Shown piece by piece: positions 1-7,559 of a stretch of DNA of 64,000 nucleotides (its first letter is position 1; each line of letters starts with the position of its first letter). The notes below the pieces were generated by a model. It ran no database searches. It saw only the letters and a list, made by a program, of their open reading frames with translations, and was not told where the DNA came from. Source of the DNA: Planctomycetota bacterium (GTDB lineage Bacteria; Planctomycetota; Planctomycetia; Gemmatales; Gemmataceae); NCBI GenBank assembly GCA_016873225.1, contig VGXS01000013.1:1-64000 (forward strand). Reading direction: 5' to 3'. The position numbers and the translations under genes were made by a program.

Positions 1-1165
1 TGTATGCCCCTTGAGGGAAAGGAGTTCCGCTCCGGTTTTGGCATCCCACACATTGGCGGTTTTGTCCCAGCTTGCGGTGATAATGCGGTTTCCGTCGGGG
101 CTGAACTGGGCGGAATTTACAGAACTTGTGTGCCCCTTGAGGGAAAGCAGTTCCTTGCCGTTTTTGGCATCCCACACCTTGGCGGTTTTGTCATCGCTTC
201 CGGTGACGATGCGGTTTCTATCAGGGCTGAACTGGGCGGAAAGCACCCAATTTGTGTGGCCCTTGAGGGAAAGCAATTCCGCCCCGGTTTTGGCGTCACA
301 CACCTTGGTGGTATTGTCAGAGCCTATGGTGAGGATGCGATTTCCGGCGGGGCTGAACAGGGTGGACTTTACAAAAATTACGTTCCCCTTGAGGGGAAGT
401 ATTTCGGCGCTGGTTTTGGCATCCCACACCTTGGCGGTTTTGTCATCGCTTCCGGTGACGATGCGGTTTCCGTCGGGGCTGAACTGGGTGGAACGCAACT
501 CCCTTGTATGCCCCTTGAGGGAAAGGAGTTCCGCTCCGGTTTTGGCATCCCACACATTGGCGGTTTTGTCCCAGCTTGCGGTGATAATGCGGTTTCCGTC
601 GGGGCTGAACTGGGCGGAATTTACAGAACTTGTGTGCCCCTTGAGGGAAAGCAGTTCGGCACCCGTTTTGGCGTCCCACACCTTGGCGGTTTTGTCTTGG
701 CTTGCGGTGACGATGCGGCGTCCATCGGGGCTGAACTGGGCAGAATTGACATCACTTGTGTGCCCCTTGAGGGAAAGCAGTTCGGCACCGGTTTTGGCAT
801 CCCACACCTTGGCGGTATCGTCTTCGCTTGCGGTGACGATGCGGTTTCCGTCGGGGTTGAATTGGGCGGAACGCACATCATCTGTGTGCCCCTTGAGGGA
901 AAGGAGTTCGGCACCCGTTTTGGCGTCCCACACCTTGGCGGTTTTATCATCGCTTGCTGTGACAATGCGGTTTCCGTCGGGGCTGAACTGGGCGGACTCC
1001 ACCCATCCTGTGTGCCCCTTGATTGAAAGGAGTTCGGCACCCGTTTTGGCGTCCCACACCTTGGCGGTTTGGTCTTGGCTTGCGGTGACGATGCGGTTTC
1101 CGTCGGGGCTGAAATGGGCAGTATTGACATTACTTGTGTGCCCCTTGAGGGAAAGCAGAGACGGG
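1..1165 (-). repeat. Tandem 126-bp repeats encoding WD40 blades
   Basis: The motif ccccttgagggaaag recurs at an exact 126-bp spacing near 7, 132, 258, 385, 510, 636, 762, 888, 1014 and 1140, giving nine full units and the start of a tenth at the window edge. Because 126 is a multiple of 3, each unit is 42 codons of the kinase gene. Bases 1-153 are identical to 505-657, an offset of exactly four units, which points to recent block duplication or gene conversion. The repeats lack stops in several frames, which creates the long shadow ORFs on both strands. Confidence 0.95.
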
Positions 1166-2472
1166 TCACGAAGGCGGTTCAGGTATCGCCATTCCCAACC
1201 ACGCAGTTTGGGGTCGGCACCGTCGAGCAACGCTCCCATGGCAACAAGGTTGTCCTCGCGCCATTCCTGATGGGCCACCCTCATTGCATTGCCGTATTCA
1301 AATACGGCTACACGCTCTTTCGCCGCATCGGCGTTTTCCCGCTGGATTTCCGCTTCGGCCCGGTTGCCTTCCGATACCCGCCACAGCGCCGCGAACCCGG
1401 CGCCCCCCACCCCGGCGATCAGCAGCAGCACCACCACGCCCGCCAGCATCCGCTGCGTCTGCCGCCTTTTGCGCTCCTCCTCGGCGCGCACCCGCGCCAT
1501 TTCCGCTTCCTTGAGCCGTTGCTCCACCTCCGCCCGGTAATCAGCCACCGCCTTGGCCAGTTCGGCGCCATCGGCGGGCCGGTCGTCCGGCGTCGCCATC
1601 AGGCAGCGCCGGCACAGGGTCACCAGTTCCCGGTCCGCTCCGCAGGCATCGAGCCTTTCAAGCGTTTCGCCAAGGTCGCACTGTGCCGCGCGGGTGATGG
1701 TCTGCATCACGCTGGTGCCGCCAAACGGCGCATGCCCCGTCAATAGGGAAGCCAGGATGCCTCCCAGCGCAAACACATCGGCCCGGGCATTCACCTCCTC
1801 GCCCCGGGCCTGCTCGGGCGCCATGTACGCCGGCGTGCCCTTCACCTGCCCGGCCACGGTCAGGCCCGCCTCTGTCGCCTTGATCTCCCCGGTGATCTCC
1901 TCGCCGCCGGCGATCTCCTTGGCCAACCCCCAGTCCATCACCTGCACTTCGCCAAAGGCACCCACCATCACATTCGAGGGTTTCAGGTCGCGGTGAATGA
2001 TGCCCTGAGCGTGCGCGTACCCCACCGCCTGGCAAATGGACTCAAACGCCGCGATCAGCCGGCCGCGGCCGGTCTCAAGGTCCGTGCGCTTTTTGAGAAT
2101 CTGGTCGAGGGTTTCGCCCCGGATCAGCTTCATCACCAGGTAGGGCAGGCCGGTGGGCAAGGTGCCCAGCGCGTGCACCGGCGGAATGCCGGGGTGCGGC
2201 AGACGGGCGGTGATGCGCGCCTCGCGGTTGAACGAGGCCGCCGACATGCCGGACTTCATCACCTTGATGGCCACTTCCCGGCCAAAGGTGAGGCACTCGG
2301 CGGCGTAGACGACGCCCATGCCGCCGCGGGCGATCTCCGGCTTGAGCCGGTAGCCGGGGACTGTGGCCATGGGAACAGCGGGGCCTTCAGGCTGTTCAAG
2401 GGTATTGGAACCTGGCGGGTCGCTGGCCGGGGTCGGCGGCGTGGTTTCGTGAATGTCGTCGTCAGGCATCAT
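1..2472 (-). CDS. Ser/Thr protein kinase with C-terminal WD40 repeats (partial, runs off left edge)
   Basis: The minus-strand frame is open from an ATG at 2472 to base 1 (824 codons) and has no stop, so the gene continues outside the window. Residues about 40-310 are a Hanks-type kinase domain: Gly-rich loop GGMGVVYAA, Lys70 in VAIK, HRD at 160-162, metal-binding DWG (a DFG variant) at 180-182, and APE at 218-220. A charged stretch then leads into one membrane helix (about 343-363), followed by WD40 repeats of exactly 42 residues starting LLSLKGHT. The layout suggests a cytoplasmic kinase with a beta-propeller outside the membrane, a common planctomycete design. The start could instead be the adjacent ATG at 2469. 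The track misses this gene because it lacks a stop. Substrate unknown. Confidence 0.93.
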   Translation of the reverse strand, partial: MMPDDDIHETTPPTPASDPPGSNTLEQPEGPAVPMATVPGYRLKPEIARGGMGVVYAAECLTFGREVAIKVMKSGMSAASFNREARITARLPHPGIPPVHALGTLPTGLPYLVMKLIRGETLDQILKKRTDLETGRGRLIAAFESICQAVGYAHAQGIIHRDLKPSNVMVGAFGEVQVMDWGLAKEIAGGEEITGEIKATEAGLTVAGQVKGTPAYMAPEQARGEEVNARADVFALGGILASLLTGHAPFGGTSVMQTITRAAQCDLGETLERLDACGADRELVTLCRRCLMATPDDRPADGAELAKAVADYRAEVEQRLKEAEMARVRAEEERKRRQTQRMLAGVVVLLLIAGVGGAGFAALWRVSEGNRAEAEIQRENADAAKERVAVFEYGNAMRVAHQEWREDNLVAMGALLDGADPKLRGWEWRYLNRLRDPSLLSLKGHTSNVNTAHFSPDGNRIVTASQDQTAKVWDAKTGAELLSIKGHTGWVESAQFSPDGNRIVTASDDKTAKVWDAKTGAELLSLKGHTDDVRSAQFNPDGNRIVTASEDDTAKVWDAKTGAELLSLKGHTSDVNSAQFSPDGRRIVTASQDKTAKVWDAKTGAELLSLKGHTSSVNSAQFSPDGNRIITASWDKTANVWDAKTGAELLSLKGHTRELRSTQFSPDGNRIVTGSDDKTAKVWDAKTSAEILPLKGNVIFVKSTLFSPAGNRILTIGSDNTTKVCDAKTGAELLSLKGHTNWVLSAQFSPDRNRIVTGSDDKTAKVWDAKNGKELLSLKGHTSSVNSAQFSPDGNRIITASWDKTANVWDAKTGAELLSLKGHT

Positions 2473-2593
2473 GGGCGTGATCCCGAACCGGGAAAGCGAA
2501 TAAAGACCAGTCCATTCTCAAAAGTTACCCGCACCGACCAGGGCACGCAATGACGGAGCATTCAGGGACATGGTGCAAAAAACGAATTTTTAC

Positions 2594-2682
2594 GAGCCCC
2601 CAGCGGAGGTGCGAAGCACCGAAGCGAATGGGTGAGTTTTAAGGCACCCCACTCACTCCGCCTTCGGCTCCGCTGGGGGCTC
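2594..2682. repeat. Inverted repeat pair, GAGCCCCCAGCGGAG family, possible terminator
   Basis: gagcccccagcggag (2594-2608) is the perfect reverse complement of ctccgctgggggctc (2668-2682). The right arm is followed by ttttgttt, so the structure could end transcription coming from the left. The right copy extends to 32 bp (2651-2682) and matches, as its reverse complement, 2805-2836 with one or two differences. That makes it a member of a dispersed repeat family and not just a local hairpin. Confidence 0.75.
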
Positions 2683-2737
2683 TTTTGTTTCCGCTAGGGC
2701 TCCTGGTGTTGTTCCTTGATCGACTCGCCCCTCACTT

Positions 2738-2836
2738 CGCTGGGGGCTCCTAAACGATGAATGGATCTCAATATGAAGGCCACACAAAGGCTGACGATGC
2801 TTAGGAGCCCCCAGCGCAGCCGAAGGCGGAGTGAGC
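2738..2836. repeat. Second inverted repeat pair of the same family
   Basis: cgctgggggctccta (2738-2752) pairs perfectly with taggagcccccagcg (2802-2816). The right copy continues through agccgaaggcggagtgag to 2836, the same extension seen in reverse at 2651-2667. Four related copies in alternating orientation therefore sit within 250 bp. It lies just 3' of folD (minus strand), so it may also help end that operon's transcript. Confidence 0.72.
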
Positions 2837-2938
2837 GGGTCTGAATCCGAAGTCGGCGCGATTACTCCGGCGCGACGCGCCTGCGTTCGGGGTTCCTCTC
2901 GCGTTCACTGTACTGGGACGGGTTTGTTGCCTGGCGGA

Positions 2939-3796
2939 TTACGGCGCGCCGCCGGCAGAGCGGAGCGTGTTGGCCAGCAGCATGGCAATCGTCATGGGGC
3001 CGACGCCGCCGGGAACCGGGGTGATGGCGCCCGCCACCTTCGCCACCTCGTCGTAGGCCACATCGCCGCACAGCGAGCCGTCGGGCAGGCGGTGGATGCC
3101 CACATCGATCACCACCGCGCCGGGGTGGATCATGTCGGCGGTCACCCAGCGGGGCTGGCCGAGGGCCGCCACCACGATCTCCGCCTGCCGCAAGATTCCG
3201 GGGATATTTTTCGACTTGCTATGGCAAATGGTGACGGTGGCGTCGACGCCCTTCTGCAGCAGCACCAGCGCCAGGCTCTTGCCCACGATGCTGCTGCGGC
3301 CGAGGATGGCGACGCGCTTGCCCGACCAGTCGATGCCCGAGCGCCGGCCCAGTTCCCACACCCCTTGGGGCGTGCACGGGAGGTAGCGGGGCCGGCCATC
3401 GGCCAGGAGGCCGAGGTTGTCGGGGTGCAGGCCGTCGACATCCTTGGCCGGGTCGATCGCGTCGAGCACCGCCGCGGCATCGAGGTGCCCGGGCAGGGGC
3501 AACTGCACCAATATGCCGTGGACAAGCGGGTCGGCGTTGAGTTTCCGCACCAGCGCCACCAACTCGGCCTGGGCGATGTCGCCGGGCATCTGGTGCAGCC
3601 AACTGGCCATGCCGGCCTTGTCGCACGCCTGCCTCTTGTTGCGCACATAGACATGGCTGGCCGGATTGTCGCCCACCAGCACCGCCGCGAGGCCGGGAAC
3701 AACGCCACTGGCGGCTTTCAGCCTCGCCGCGCCCCCGGCGATCTCGTCGCGGATGGCCTGCGCGATCGCCTTGCCGTCGATGATGCTGGCGGTCAT
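2939..3796 (-). CDS. folD: Bifunctional methylenetetrahydrofolate dehydrogenase / cyclohydrolase FolD
   Basis: 285 aa, the usual length. FolD interconverts 5,10-methylene-THF and 10-formyl-THF in the cytoplasm, using NADP for the oxidation step. Family hallmarks are visible: the catalytic-region YVRNKRQACDKAG (the Lys lies in the Y-x3-K pattern), QLPLPGH, KDVDGLHP, the dinucleotide-binding GRSSIVGKSLA, and the C-terminal TPVPGGVGPMT. Its ATG overlaps the stop of the upstream 127-aa gene by 4 bp, so it is translationally coupled as the last gene of the peroxiredoxin operon. Confidence 0.97.
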   Translation of the reverse strand: MTASIIDGKAIAQAIRDEIAGGAARLKAASGVVPGLAAVLVGDNPASHVYVRNKRQACDKAGMASWLHQMPGDIAQAELVALVRKLNADPLVHGILVQLPLPGHLDAAAVLDAIDPAKDVDGLHPDNLGLLADGRPRYLPCTPQGVWELGRRSGIDWSGKRVAILGRSSIVGKSLALVLLQKGVDATVTICHSKSKNIPGILRQAEIVVAALGQPRWVTADMIHPGAVVIDVGIHRLPDGSLCGDVAYDEVAKVAGAITPVPGGVGPMTIAMLLANTLRSAGGAP

Positions 3797-4176
3797 GGGG
3801 AGGTTCCCGGAGGATTCGAGAAGTCGATGGCCGCGTCGGCGGCCCGGTGAATCACCGCCCCCTGCCAGTCGGCAAGGTCGACCAGGGCTTCCAGCTCGCG
3901 GGACAGCACGCCGAGGGCGAACACGGTGTTCGCCTCGCGGCAGGCGATTTCGGCGAGGTTCCAGGCCTTGGCGTCGAGCGGTTCGTTGTCGGCGGGTTCG
4001 CCAAGGTCGACATGCCCGCCCTTGCCGATGACGAGGCAGCCTGCGGCGATGGCGCCCGACGGGTCGAGCGGGGCGCCGGTGTCCTCGCGCTTGCCCACAA
4101 TCGCGACGAACCGGGCGCCCTGGCAGTGGACCGGATCGTGGTGGTCGTGGCCGTGGTCGCGATCCCCGTGGATCAC
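3793..4176 (-). CDS. Uncharacterised small protein with His/Asp-rich N terminus
   Basis: 127 aa, not recognised. It begins [15 protein letters not shown], a His/Asp cluster that could bind metal, followed by a region with predicted alpha/beta character and no signal peptide or membrane helix. It overlaps both neighbours by 4 bp (ATGA at each junction), between a peroxiredoxin and folD, which makes it a real translated gene and ties it to one or both functions. No catalytic motif is visible. The close packing is seen; a redox or metal role would be guesswork. Confidence 0.75.
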
Positions 4177-4763
4177 GCGTTGGCCTTCTTGAAATATTCC
4201 TGGGAACCCTTGGGATCGGCCTTCATCGTGGCTTCGCCCTTCTTCCAGTTGGCGGGGCAGACCTCGCCGACGGTCTCGAACTGCTGCAGGGCGTCGACCA
4301 TGCGCAGGGCCTCGTCCACGCTGCGGCCCAGGGGCAGGTCGTTGATGAGCATGTGGCGCACCACGCCGGCCTTGTCGATCAGGAACAGGCCGCGGAGGGC
4401 GACGCTGTCATCCGGCAGGAGCACGCCGTAGTCCTTGGCGATTTTCTTGGTGAGGTCGGCCACGAGGGGGTAGCGCACGCCGCCCAGGCCGCCGTGGGTT
4501 CGCGGGGTCTGGTTCCAGGCCAGGTGGGTGAACTGGCTGTCGATCGACACGCCGATCACCTCGGTGTTGCGCTTCCTGAATTCATCGAGCTTCTGGTCGA
4601 AGGCGATGATTTCGGTGGGGCAGACGAAGGTGAAGTCGAGCGGGTAGAAGTACAGCACGACATATTTTCCGAGGTAGTCGGCAAGATTCACGGAGGTGAT
4701 TTCCGAACCGATGACCGCGGCGGCGTTGAACACGGGCGCGGGCTTGGTGACGAGCGATGACAT
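4173..4763 (-). CDS. 2-Cys peroxiredoxin (AhpC/Prx1 type)
   Basis: 196 aa from the ATG at 4763, chosen over the longer track ORF because AGAGG sits just upstream and the family N terminus begins there. The enzyme reduces H2O2, organic peroxides and peroxynitrite with thiol recycling. The peroxidatic Cys48 is in DFTFVCPTE and the resolving Cys169 in [13 protein letters not shown] segment (91-94) and a C-terminal YF (190-191) are both present, the pair linked in Prx1-type enzymes to sensitivity to over-oxidation. It is the first gene of a three-gene minus-strand operon with folD. Confidence 0.95.
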
Positions 4764-4961
4764 GGCAACCTCTTTCGGGGTGGTGTGTTGGAGCTTCGAC
4801 CATGTCATGATTAGGGATGGGGTGCCACCACGGTCAATCCCCGGCCCGGGCGCGGCGACGCGGGAGTCGCCGGTGGGCTTGAAATGCGCCACATCGGCTC
4901 CTAGCAGATAAAATGAGCAACTTGAGAAACTGTTGTCGGTTTCCCGAACGCCGACTGCCTA

Positions 4962-5951
4962 ATGGATCACTTGGCCATGATGGTTGAAATCGAGCATCTT
5001 TCCAAGTACTTCGGGCCCGTTTTGGCCGTCAGCGATGTTTCGCTGAAGATCGGCCGCAACGAGATTGTGGGCCTCCTTGGCAACAACGGCGCGGGCAAGA
5101 GCACGCTCATGCGGATGCTCACCACCTACCTTCCCGCCACCAGCGGACGGATGACGGTGGATGGTTTCGATGTGCTCACCCAGTCGCAGGATGTGCGGCG
5201 CCGGATTGGTTATCTGCCCGAGAGCATCCCTCTGTATCCCGAGATGCGGGTGGAGGAATACCTGCGCTACCGGGCCCAGTTGAAGGGCCTGAGCCGTTGC
5301 AAGGTGCGCCCGCGCATCGAGCATGTGTTGGGCCGGTGCCGCCTCGGCGAGGTGCGCCGCCGGCAGTGCGGCACCCTGTCGAAGGGGTTCCGGCAGCGGG
5401 TGGGCCTGGCCGACGCCCTTTTGGCGGAACCGGCGCTTCTGATCCTTGATGAGCCCACCGACGGCCTCGATCCCGGCCAAAAACAGGAGGCGCTGGCCCT
5501 TTTGCGCGACCTGGGCCGCGAGCACACCATCGTCTTCAGCTCCCACCTGCTGGGCGAGGTGGAGTCGCTGGTGAACCGGATCGTGATCCTCAGGCGGGGG
5601 CATCTGGCGCTCGACAAGCGCATCGAGGAACTGCGGGAGGAGGCCGACCGCGAGCGCACCCTGCGCTTCGAGGTCCGTGGCGGCCGGGAAGCGGTCGATG
5701 GCGCGCTGCGGAACTGCTCGCTGGGCGAATCGGCCCGCTCGGTGCGGTACAACCCTCTTCCCGACGGCTGGTTGCAGGGTGAACTGAGGCTGCCCGGTTC
5801 GCTCGACCCGAGGGAAGACCTGGTGCGGCAGATCACCGGCGCGGGCGTGGGACTGAGGCACATCGAGTTCCACAGGCCCTCGCTGAACGACCGCTGGAAC
5901 GAGATCAACAACCGGGATGTGGCGTCGCTGGCCGCCGCCCCATCCGCCTGA
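4962..5951 (+). CDS. ABC transporter ATP-binding protein, GldA-like
   Basis: Up to 329 aa. Walker A GNNGAGKST, signature LSKGFRQRVGLADALL, Walker B LLILDEPTDGLDP and an H-loop in SSHLL are intact. The start is uncertain: ATG at 4962, 4977 or 4980 are all in frame, and MVEIEHLSKYFG (4980) best matches the family N terminus. It precedes an ABC-2 permease, a GldG-type auxiliary protein and a DUF4340 protein, the arrangement of Gld-like exporters named from gliding motility in Bacteroidetes. Motility is not implied here, and the substrate is unknown. Confidence 0.92.
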   Translation: MDHLAMMVEIEHLSKYFGPVLAVSDVSLKIGRNEIVGLLGNNGAGKSTLMRMLTTYLPATSGRMTVDGFDVLTQSQDVRRRIGYLPESIPLYPEMRVEEYLRYRAQLKGLSRCKVRPRIEHVLGRCRLGEVRRRQCGTLSKGFRQRVGLADALLAEPALLILDEPTDGLDPGQKQEALALLRDLGREHTIVFSSHLLGEVESLVNRIVILRRGHLALDKRIEELREEADRERTLRFEVRGGREAVDGALRNCSLGESARSVRYNPLPDGWLQGELRLPGSLDPREDLVRQITGAGVGLRHIEFHRPSLNDRWNEINNRDVASLAAAPSA

Positions 5952-6002
5952 ACCGGCCCCCCGGGGCCAACATTTGCCGCGAGTCCGATCCGGAGAGCTT
6001 TC

Positions 6003-7559
6003 ATGTCCGATCCGACAGACATCCTGCCCCAGGCAGCGGGGCCAACGGGGGCGCCCGAGGGCCCCGGCCCTTCCCAGATCGTGGACGACGAACTGGCGGC
6101 GCCGCGGATGGTGGGAATCGCCGGGCTCATGGCGCTCATCATCGGTTTCGTCGCCGTGGGGTTCGGCCTGCAGGACCGGGCGTTCGCCATCGGGCCGGGC
6201 ATCGGCCTGTTGTGCCTGTTCGCGGGGCTGACGGGGTTGATCGTCCATGCGTTCATGGAGGACGAGGCCGCGCTGAAGCTGGCCTATTTCTCTGGTGGCG
6301 TGACCGGGGCGGTGGCGGGAACCGGGGTGCTGTTCCTGGGCGACTGGAGCGTGGCGGCCCGGGCCCTGGGGATGGTCATCGCGCTTTCGGCCCTGCCGTT
6401 GCTGTTGAGCGTGGCGCGGGGCGGAACCCCGGGCCAATCGGTGCTGGGCTTGGTGCCCCGGGGCCTGCTGGCGGCCGGTTCGCTGCTGCTTGCCGGCGGC
6501 CTGGCCTGGCAGTTCATCCTGGGCGAGCGGGGCGACTTCGAGTCGATCGGGCTGCCGCTGGCCCTTTCCATCCTCGGCGCGGCCTATTTCATCGGGGTGC
6601 TCGGCTTCCTCGGCTGGGAATCGGAACTGTCGTTCCGAGCCGGGTGGATGGCCACCCTGGCCGGCCTGGGCGTGGCCCTTTTGGCCCTGGTCCGCTCGGT
6701 GCTTCATGAATCGGGCGTCTGGCAGGCGCAGGGAACGGCCTACTTCGTGCCGGCCGGCTACCTGATCGTCGCGGTGTCGCTGCTGGTGGCCGCCGCGGCC
6801 TACGCCACCGTTTCCGACAGGCCCACGCTCGTGGTGGCGCGCCGTGAACTCCAGGGCTTCTTCTACTCGCCCATCGCCTATTTCGTGCTGGTTTCATTCG
6901 CCCTGGCCACCTGGTTCAGCTACCAGAACTTCCTCGGCAACCTCGCCGAGGGCAGGGTGCTCGAGCCGATCCTCAACTACTATGTGGTCGAACTGTTCCT
7001 GATCCTCTGCCTGCTGTTCTCCGTTCCTTTGATCACGATGCGCCTCCTCAGCGAGGAGAAGCGCGCCGGCACGCTCGAGGTGCTGCTCACCGCCCCGGTG
7101 GACGAGGCTTCCATCGTGCTCGGGAAGTTCATCGCGGCGTTCATCATGTTCCTGTGCCTGTGGCTGCCGTTCATGCTGTACCTGCTGGCGCTGCCGGTGG
7201 GGGCCCAACCGGGCTTCGACTTCCGGCCGCTGTTGAGCTTCGGCGTGGCGCTCGCCGCCAGCGGCGCCGGGTTCGTGGCCATGGGCCTGCTGTTCAGCGC
7301 GCTTTCGGGAAACCAGCTGATCGCCGGCGCCCTGACGCTCGTGGGCATGATCGGGCTTCTCGTGCCTTACATCATGCAGTTCAGGCTGATGGAAACCTCG
7401 GGATGGGGAACCGTGCTGGGGCACATCTCGTTCCTCACCGGCTGGGAAAGCGCGCTGGAAGGCAAGCTGATCCCCAGGCAGTGGGTTTTCTCGGTGTCGC
7501 TGACGGTGTTCTGCCTGTTCTGTTCCGTCAAGGTGCTGGAATCACGCAAATGGAAATGA
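6003..7559 (+). CDS. ABC-2 type permease, GldF-like with N-terminal membrane extension
   Basis: 518 aa, about twice the length of a simple GldF. The first 270 residues are a series of about seven hydrophobic helices. The second half starts RRELQGFFYSPIAYFV and carries the six-helix ABC-2 permease fold, including the cytoplasmic SEEKRAGTLEVLLTAPV segment found in this family. It should form the membrane channel for the ATPase encoded 51 bp upstream. The extra N-terminal helices may interact with the downstream GldG-like subunit; this is inference. Confidence 0.88.
   Translation: MSDPTDILPQAAGPTGAPEGPGPSQIVDDELAAPRMVGIAGLMALIIGFVAVGFGLQDRAFAIGPGIGLLCLFAGLTGLIVHAFMEDEAALKLAYFSGGVTGAVAGTGVLFLGDWSVAARALGMVIALSALPLLLSVARGGTPGQSVLGLVPRGLLAAGSLLLAGGLAWQFILGERGDFESIGLPLALSILGAAYFIGVLGFLGWESELSFRAGWMATLAGLGVALLALVRSVLHESGVWQAQGTAYFVPAGYLIVAVSLLVAAAAYATVSDRPTLVVARRELQGFFYSPIAYFVLVSFALATWFSYQNFLGNLAEGRVLEPILNYYVVELFLILCLLFSVPLITMRLLSEEKRAGTLEVLLTAPVDEASIVLGKFIAAFIMFLCLWLPFMLYLLALPVGAQPGFDFRPLLSFGVALAASGAGFVAMGLLFSALSGNQLIAGALTLVGMIGLLVPYIMQFRLMETSGWGTVLGHISFLTGWESALEGKLIPRQWVFSVSLTVFCLFCSVKVLESRKWK

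Follow-up and report, generated by a model that had tools for sequence, protein, structure and literature searches.

The window, the 64,000-nucleotide stretch of planctomycete DNA analysed here, opens inside a kinase gene that raises two questions: how did its long row of WD40 blades arise, and what might variation among those blades do for the protein? The stretch covers the opening 64 kb of contig C13 (94,152 bp), which belongs to a genome assembly (G000) of 172 contigs that is 82% complete. We find that the array has grown by copying blades within the gene, that its differences concentrate at a few residues of the predicted binding face, and that its youngest copy is also the place where the assembly breaks.

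A membrane kinase with a repetitive WD40 array

The gene lies on the minus strand at 1..2472 (open reading frame 2472..1), with 824 aa inside the window and an open end at the contig boundary. Its protein kinase domain (aa 41–300; 1573..2352, minus strand) matches Pfam PF00069 (Pkinase, E 2.8e-37), and in the translation the catalytic motifs GGMGVVY, VAIK, HRDLKPSN, DWG and APE are all intact. A single transmembrane segment is predicted at aa 342–360 (1393..1449, minus strand; Kyte-Doolittle mean 2.35 over 19 residues). It is followed by a linker whose translated motif GWEWRYL (1180..1200, minus strand), shared with several related kinases, stands immediately ahead of the array. WD40 repeats are recognised in the same reading frame with a Pfam E value of 4.3e-99. 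Named relatives come chiefly from Gemmata, Fimbriiglobus and other planctomycete genomes. PADLOC returned only kinase models for the kinase domain (best PD-T4-6) and is not informative here. Judged by its domains, the gene product is a planctomycete membrane Ser/Thr kinase whose sensor part is a highly repetitive WD40 array.

The array within the window comprises nine complete 42-aa WD40 units, from u0 (1033–1158) to u8 (25–150), together spanning 25..1158 on the minus strand. A sequence-only reading of the window had described an exact 126-bp period in near-identical DNA. The period holds: Tandem Repeats Finder reports, over 1–1158, a period of 126 with 9.2 copies, 81% matches and 0% indels. 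Near-identity does not, for pairs of units share 72–94% of nucleotides and 52–88% of amino acids, and the sole identical pair is u4 and u8. Median amino acid identity between units is 0.81, computed over 10 distinct units as plain pairwise identity and not with the script of the study that defined highly repetitive WD40 proteins (PMC5587647). One unit, u6 (277..402, minus strand), is degenerate: WD has become CD, SPDG has become SPAG and GHT has become GNV, and it shares 72–79% of nucleotides with the other units of the window. AlphaFold2 models the 400-aa C-terminal part encoded in the window as 36 strands forming nine four-stranded blades (mean pLDDT 83.6), with pLDDT below 50 at model residues 272–275, inside u6. 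Because the model covers part of the array, its closure is uninformative about the real number of blades. The top PDB match to the array, both by sequence (E 6.5e-214) and by fold, is 2YMU, itself a highly repetitive propeller.

Contig C13 begins at window base 1, and the gene is truncated at that point. Contig C38 supplies the continuation: its last 127 bp are identical to window 1..127, and it carries on the reading frame through units 9–11 to a stop codon, the C-terminus of the kinase. The other end of C13 likewise overlaps the start of contig C11 by exactly 127 bp. We interpret these exact overlaps as the mark left by a de Bruijn assembler with k = 127.

Variation concentrates on the predicted binding face

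In fungal HET-D and HET-E repeats, high dN/dS has been reported at positions 10, 11, 12, 14, 30, 32 and 39 (PMC12222747). Using the conserved WD40 tryptophan, position 37 in PMC5587647, we mapped these seven positions to array positions 8, 9, 10, 12, 28, 30 and 37. At the seven preset sites pN between units is 0.46, compared with 0.12 elsewhere, and pN/pS is 2.22 compared with 0.40. A permutation test of pN against random seven-site sets gives p 1e-5; the same test of the pN/pS ratio alone is weaker (p 0.012). Fisher's test gives p 1e-6 on distinct codons when u6, u8 and u11 are left out, and 0.001 with all units. Nearly all of the variation sits at five of the seven sites: array positions 9, 10, 12, 28 and 30, equivalent to fungal positions 11, 12, 14, 30 and 32, hold five to six amino acids each, while the site equivalent to fungal position 39 does not vary in this array and that equivalent to position 10 hardly does. 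The codons that vary most lie at known interaction hotspots, which lends weight to the earlier suggestion that the ligand face varies. Unit pairs lack independence, and recombination between units can distort codon counts; we therefore regard these values as good evidence for binding-face diversification and not as proof of positive selection.

Relaxed constraint on the top face could also leave these sites variable, with no selection for new binding. More than ten genes among the relatives that we retrieved share the architecture, with internal amino acid identity of 0.69–0.86 and, in most cases, a visible kinase motif. In all of these arrays pN at the seven sites exceeds pN at the remaining positions, and in most of them it is close to pS, as relaxed constraint would predict. 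In the kinase studied here, however, pN/pS at these sites is 2.2–2.3, with a bootstrap interval over units of 1.5–4.9, and two other kinases (L051 and L054) also exceed 1.8. Relaxation is a possibility to be taken seriously, although we hold it to be the less probable account of the variable face.

A single blade was copied exactly

One pair of blades departs from the general level of divergence. Positions 1–153 equal 505–657 with zero mismatches, as the sequence-only reading had noticed; the runner-up exact repeat is 57 bp. On the minus strand, the copy at 505..657 holds the last codon of u3, the whole of u4 and the first 24 nt of u5, and the copy at 1..153, which ends at the contig end, holds the last codon of u7, the whole of u8 and the first 24 nt of u9. 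The duplicated stretch thus amounts to one blade and a further 27 bp. Where bases agree at about 84%, 153 consecutive matches have a probability of 0.84^153, on the order of 1e-12, and are not due to chance. With dS of 0 (upper bound about 0.1), the u4/u8 copy is the youngest event in the array.

The spacing of the two copies, 504 bp or four times 126, had been taken as the mark of a 504-bp higher-order duplication, in which four blades would have been copied together. We rejected this reading on the assembled sequence. Once the 153 bp are set aside, lag 504 shows an identity of 0.81, whereas lag 126 gives 0.82, lag 252 gives 0.84 and lag 378 gives 0.85. In the unit matrix, units 5, 6 and 7 are no more like units 1, 2 and 3 than like other units, and units 9–11 do not pair with units 5–7 either (81, 75 and 65% nt). 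Because lag 504 is unexceptional beyond the exact stretch, a single blade was copied and not a four-blade block. The assembly graph leaves one opening for a block. It runs from the upstream units into the shared 153 bp, through a loop of u5–u7, back through the shared 153 bp and on to C38, and more than one pass through the loop in the genome would mean a tandem four-blade block of u5–u8. We consider a true four-blade duplication improbable.

The same graph accounts for the contig boundary, since an exact 153-bp repeat makes a loop in a short-read assembly graph and the contig ends there. The number of passes is unreadable from the assembly, and the count of 12 blades applies only if the loop is passed once (12, 16 and so on). 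WD40 blade numbers peak at 7 and 14 (PMC9218822); twelve fits neither, so the array may be misassembled. At the extreme, the exact repeat could be purely an artefact in which the assembler walked one repeat twice. One copy does end exactly at the contig end, the next contig does share the 127 bp, and short-read assemblies of 42-aa WD40 arrays are known to drop or invent repeats (PMC12222747). But a u5–u8 loop that departs from the shared stretch and returns to it requires reads over both borders, and at least two copies is the simplest reading. Moreover, kinases in single-contig genomes carry exact repeats of similar size, of 131 bp at a lag of eight units in G033 and of 103 bp at a lag of two units in G050. 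Non-adjacent exact blade copies are accordingly normal in these genes, independent of fragmented assembly, and we give the artefact little credence.

The array is probably young and grew within its own gene

Single-blade copying also appears to account for the rest of the array. Between units the median dS is 0.33–0.36, far from saturation at synonymous sites. For comparison, dS between this genome and its sister species (G002) is 0.38 for FolD and 0.36 for the ABC-ATPase, and 0.23–0.24 for NAMPT, NADAR and DraG. Divergence between units is similar to that of FolD and the ABC-ATPase between the two closest species, and if rates are alike, the array would be roughly as young as the split between the two species. 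The pairs u4/u8 and u0/u3 (the latter 94% nt) are younger than the rest, which points to repeated events.

A blade tree of 13 genes places the nine tested units of this kinase in one clade (support 0.98), and for 9/9 of them the nearest relative lies within the same gene. Units of several other genes likewise form their own clades. Blades of WD40 propellers have been reported to amplify independently, gene by gene (PMC9218822), and the tree, as a comparison of sequences, indicates the same here. The low unit dS and the single unit clade together support the recent amplification or gene conversion that had been proposed.

The remaining alternative, in which the repeats are old and purifying selection for a stable fold has kept them similar, would fit the conservation of sites outside the seven variable ones (pN/pS 0.2–0.4), but it is disfavoured by unit dS and predicts the synonymous saturation seen in a divergent kinase of the sister species (G002:C527; unit pS 0.66, amino acid identity 0.43) where we find pS of 0.27–0.28, and we regard it as very improbable. 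In our judgement the array was, with high probability, built by repeated in-gene duplication and/or conversion of single 126-bp blades. The duplication itself is demonstrated; its route could have been either unequal crossing-over or gene conversion.

A different gene occupies the locus in the sister species

The gene encoding FolD (2939..3796, minus strand; 94% aa identity to the sister species) serves as a syntenic anchor beside the kinase gene. Sequence common to the two species stops at about 2541. A single TolB-like gene stands where the two flanks meet in G002: one half of it closes the contig with the FolD flank (C92, 89% nt), and the other half closes the contig with the NADAR flank (C268, 91% nt). 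The halves overlap by 10 bp, and their join is spanned by a colinear TolB-like gene on G000:C22. Synteny with G002 thus independently supports the adjacency of C13 and C38.

Between orthologous flanks, from window 2541 to position 6393 of L003 (C38), one gene has been swapped for another: a WD40 kinase in G000 and a TolB-like propeller gene in G002. The G002 relative of the kinase and the G000 TolB-like gene are both found at other loci. In G000 the TolB-like gene (L202 4289–5478, G000:C22) is split over two frames by an apparent frameshift; the G002 copy reads through.

The nearest G002 kinase, on C527, has 14 divergent blades with a median amino acid identity of 0.43 and is near saturation at synonymous sites. 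We considered it as a positional orthologue (70% kinase identity) and rejected it, because its kinase dS is 1.05 compared with 0.23–0.38 at the genes of the FolD and NADAR flanks. It follows a sulfatase gene, at a site that lacks the kinase in G000, and its position at another locus together with its dS marks it as a paralogue or a transferred copy. In a third genome (G001), whose contig ends beside FolD, we found no DNA-level orthologue of the kinase.

REP-like inverted or tandem repeats lie beside the swapped genes: inverted repeats at 2589..2839 of the window, in the interval that separates the kinase gene from FolD, and further repeats at L203 5159–5360 and at L024 2750–2772 and 6413–6439. 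A 23–27-bp repeat flanks the G002 kinase in opposite orientation, and several copies of it occur at the corresponding kinase-free site in G000.

Directly downstream of the kinase, genes for NADAR, an ADP-ribosylglycohydrolase, a Prs-like phosphoribosyltransferase and NAMPT/NAPRTase stand in a row on the minus strand (L003, C38 26000–33029, at 2355–6331). This NAD-salvage or ADP-ribose cluster is 91% conserved in nucleotides in G002:C268.

Relation to known repeat proteins

Highly repetitive prokaryotic WD40 proteins have internal identity above 0.7, unit dS usually below 0.4 and diversity at hotspot sites; they are enriched in Planctomycetes, some carry a kinase domain in the same protein, and about 20% of prokaryotic WD40 proteins are young (PMC5587647). 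With unit identity of 0.81 (at least 0.7), unit dS of 0.33–0.36 and variation at hotspot sites, the kinase joins this class, and the idea of amplification is itself already published (PMC5587647, PMC9218822). We see no essential difference from the proteins of Hu et al. 2017 (PMC5587647); what this locus adds is that its most recent unit copy can be dated and that one blade is degenerate. 2YMU and the newly amplified propellers of Pereira and Lupas 2022 (PMC9218822) likewise arose by gene-by-gene blade amplification, although the solved 2YMU chain has no kinase and the blade number here may be neither 7 nor 14.

Two related kinase loci show other repeat lengths and lags. In G009:C1, the kinase at L039 (about 3625 to 4506) has 144-bp (48-aa) repeats whose lag identity is 91%, and it contains an exact 170-bp repeat with a lag of 432. 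A Gemmata kinase-WD40 contig (L044) has an exact 196-bp repeat at 1597 and 1993, a lag of 396 that is not a multiple of 126.

Planctomycetota also encode WD40- and TPR-array Ser/Thr kinases with an N-terminal Pkinase domain, one membrane span and a C-terminal array, and Gemmataceae carry about 100–140 Ser/Thr kinases, according to the part of PMC11032199 that concerns these families. The domain order is the same as here. That part counts domains and places them in the membrane, and DNA-level repeat turnover is not its subject.

The fungal HNWD NLRs HET-D, HET-E and HET-R also have 42-aa/126-bp units with high internal conservation, and they share with the kinase array both the variable positions and the trouble in short-read assembly (PMC4986451, PMC12222747). 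They are NACHT NLRs with a HET effector, whereas the protein here is a bacterial kinase: its N-terminus is the kinase domain, and no NACHT domain occurs among the 25 Pfam matches listed for its reading frame. Allele specificity and strain variation have been demonstrated only in the fungal proteins (PMC4986451, PMC12222747).

A possible diversifying sensor

These comparisons suggest how the protein might work. With one hydrophobic segment, and by the rule described for this architecture in the relevant part of PMC11032199, the kinase domain would be cytoplasmic and the propeller would sit on the outer side of the membrane. The propeller's top face may bind a protein or peptide as its ligand, with five variable residues per blade giving specificity, and this binding would control kinase activity. 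As blades differ mainly at their variable residues, duplication or conversion of blades would reshuffle the binding face and leave the fold undisturbed. The array, the turnover of its units and their site-specific diversity are features of the DNA itself; topology, ligand control and a benefit of variation belong to the model.

On the broadest interpretation, the gene would be a bacterial counterpart of fungal allorecognition receptors: a transmembrane kinase whose face is diversified by blade copying and by diversifying selection on the five residues that also vary in the fungi, encoded at a locus that holds a different gene in the sister species, such that blade number and specificity differ between strains. 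We advance this only tentatively and think it unlikely to hold in full.

For genes of this kind, blade numbers taken from short-read metagenome assemblies should not be trusted, as the break of the contig within the array shows here. The locus offers a bacterial sensor kinase in which blade turnover is still going on and can be dated, and its variable residues coincide with those of fungal recognition receptors. Its most interesting aspect is the possibility that the recognition face of a bacterial kinase may vary at the level of strains.
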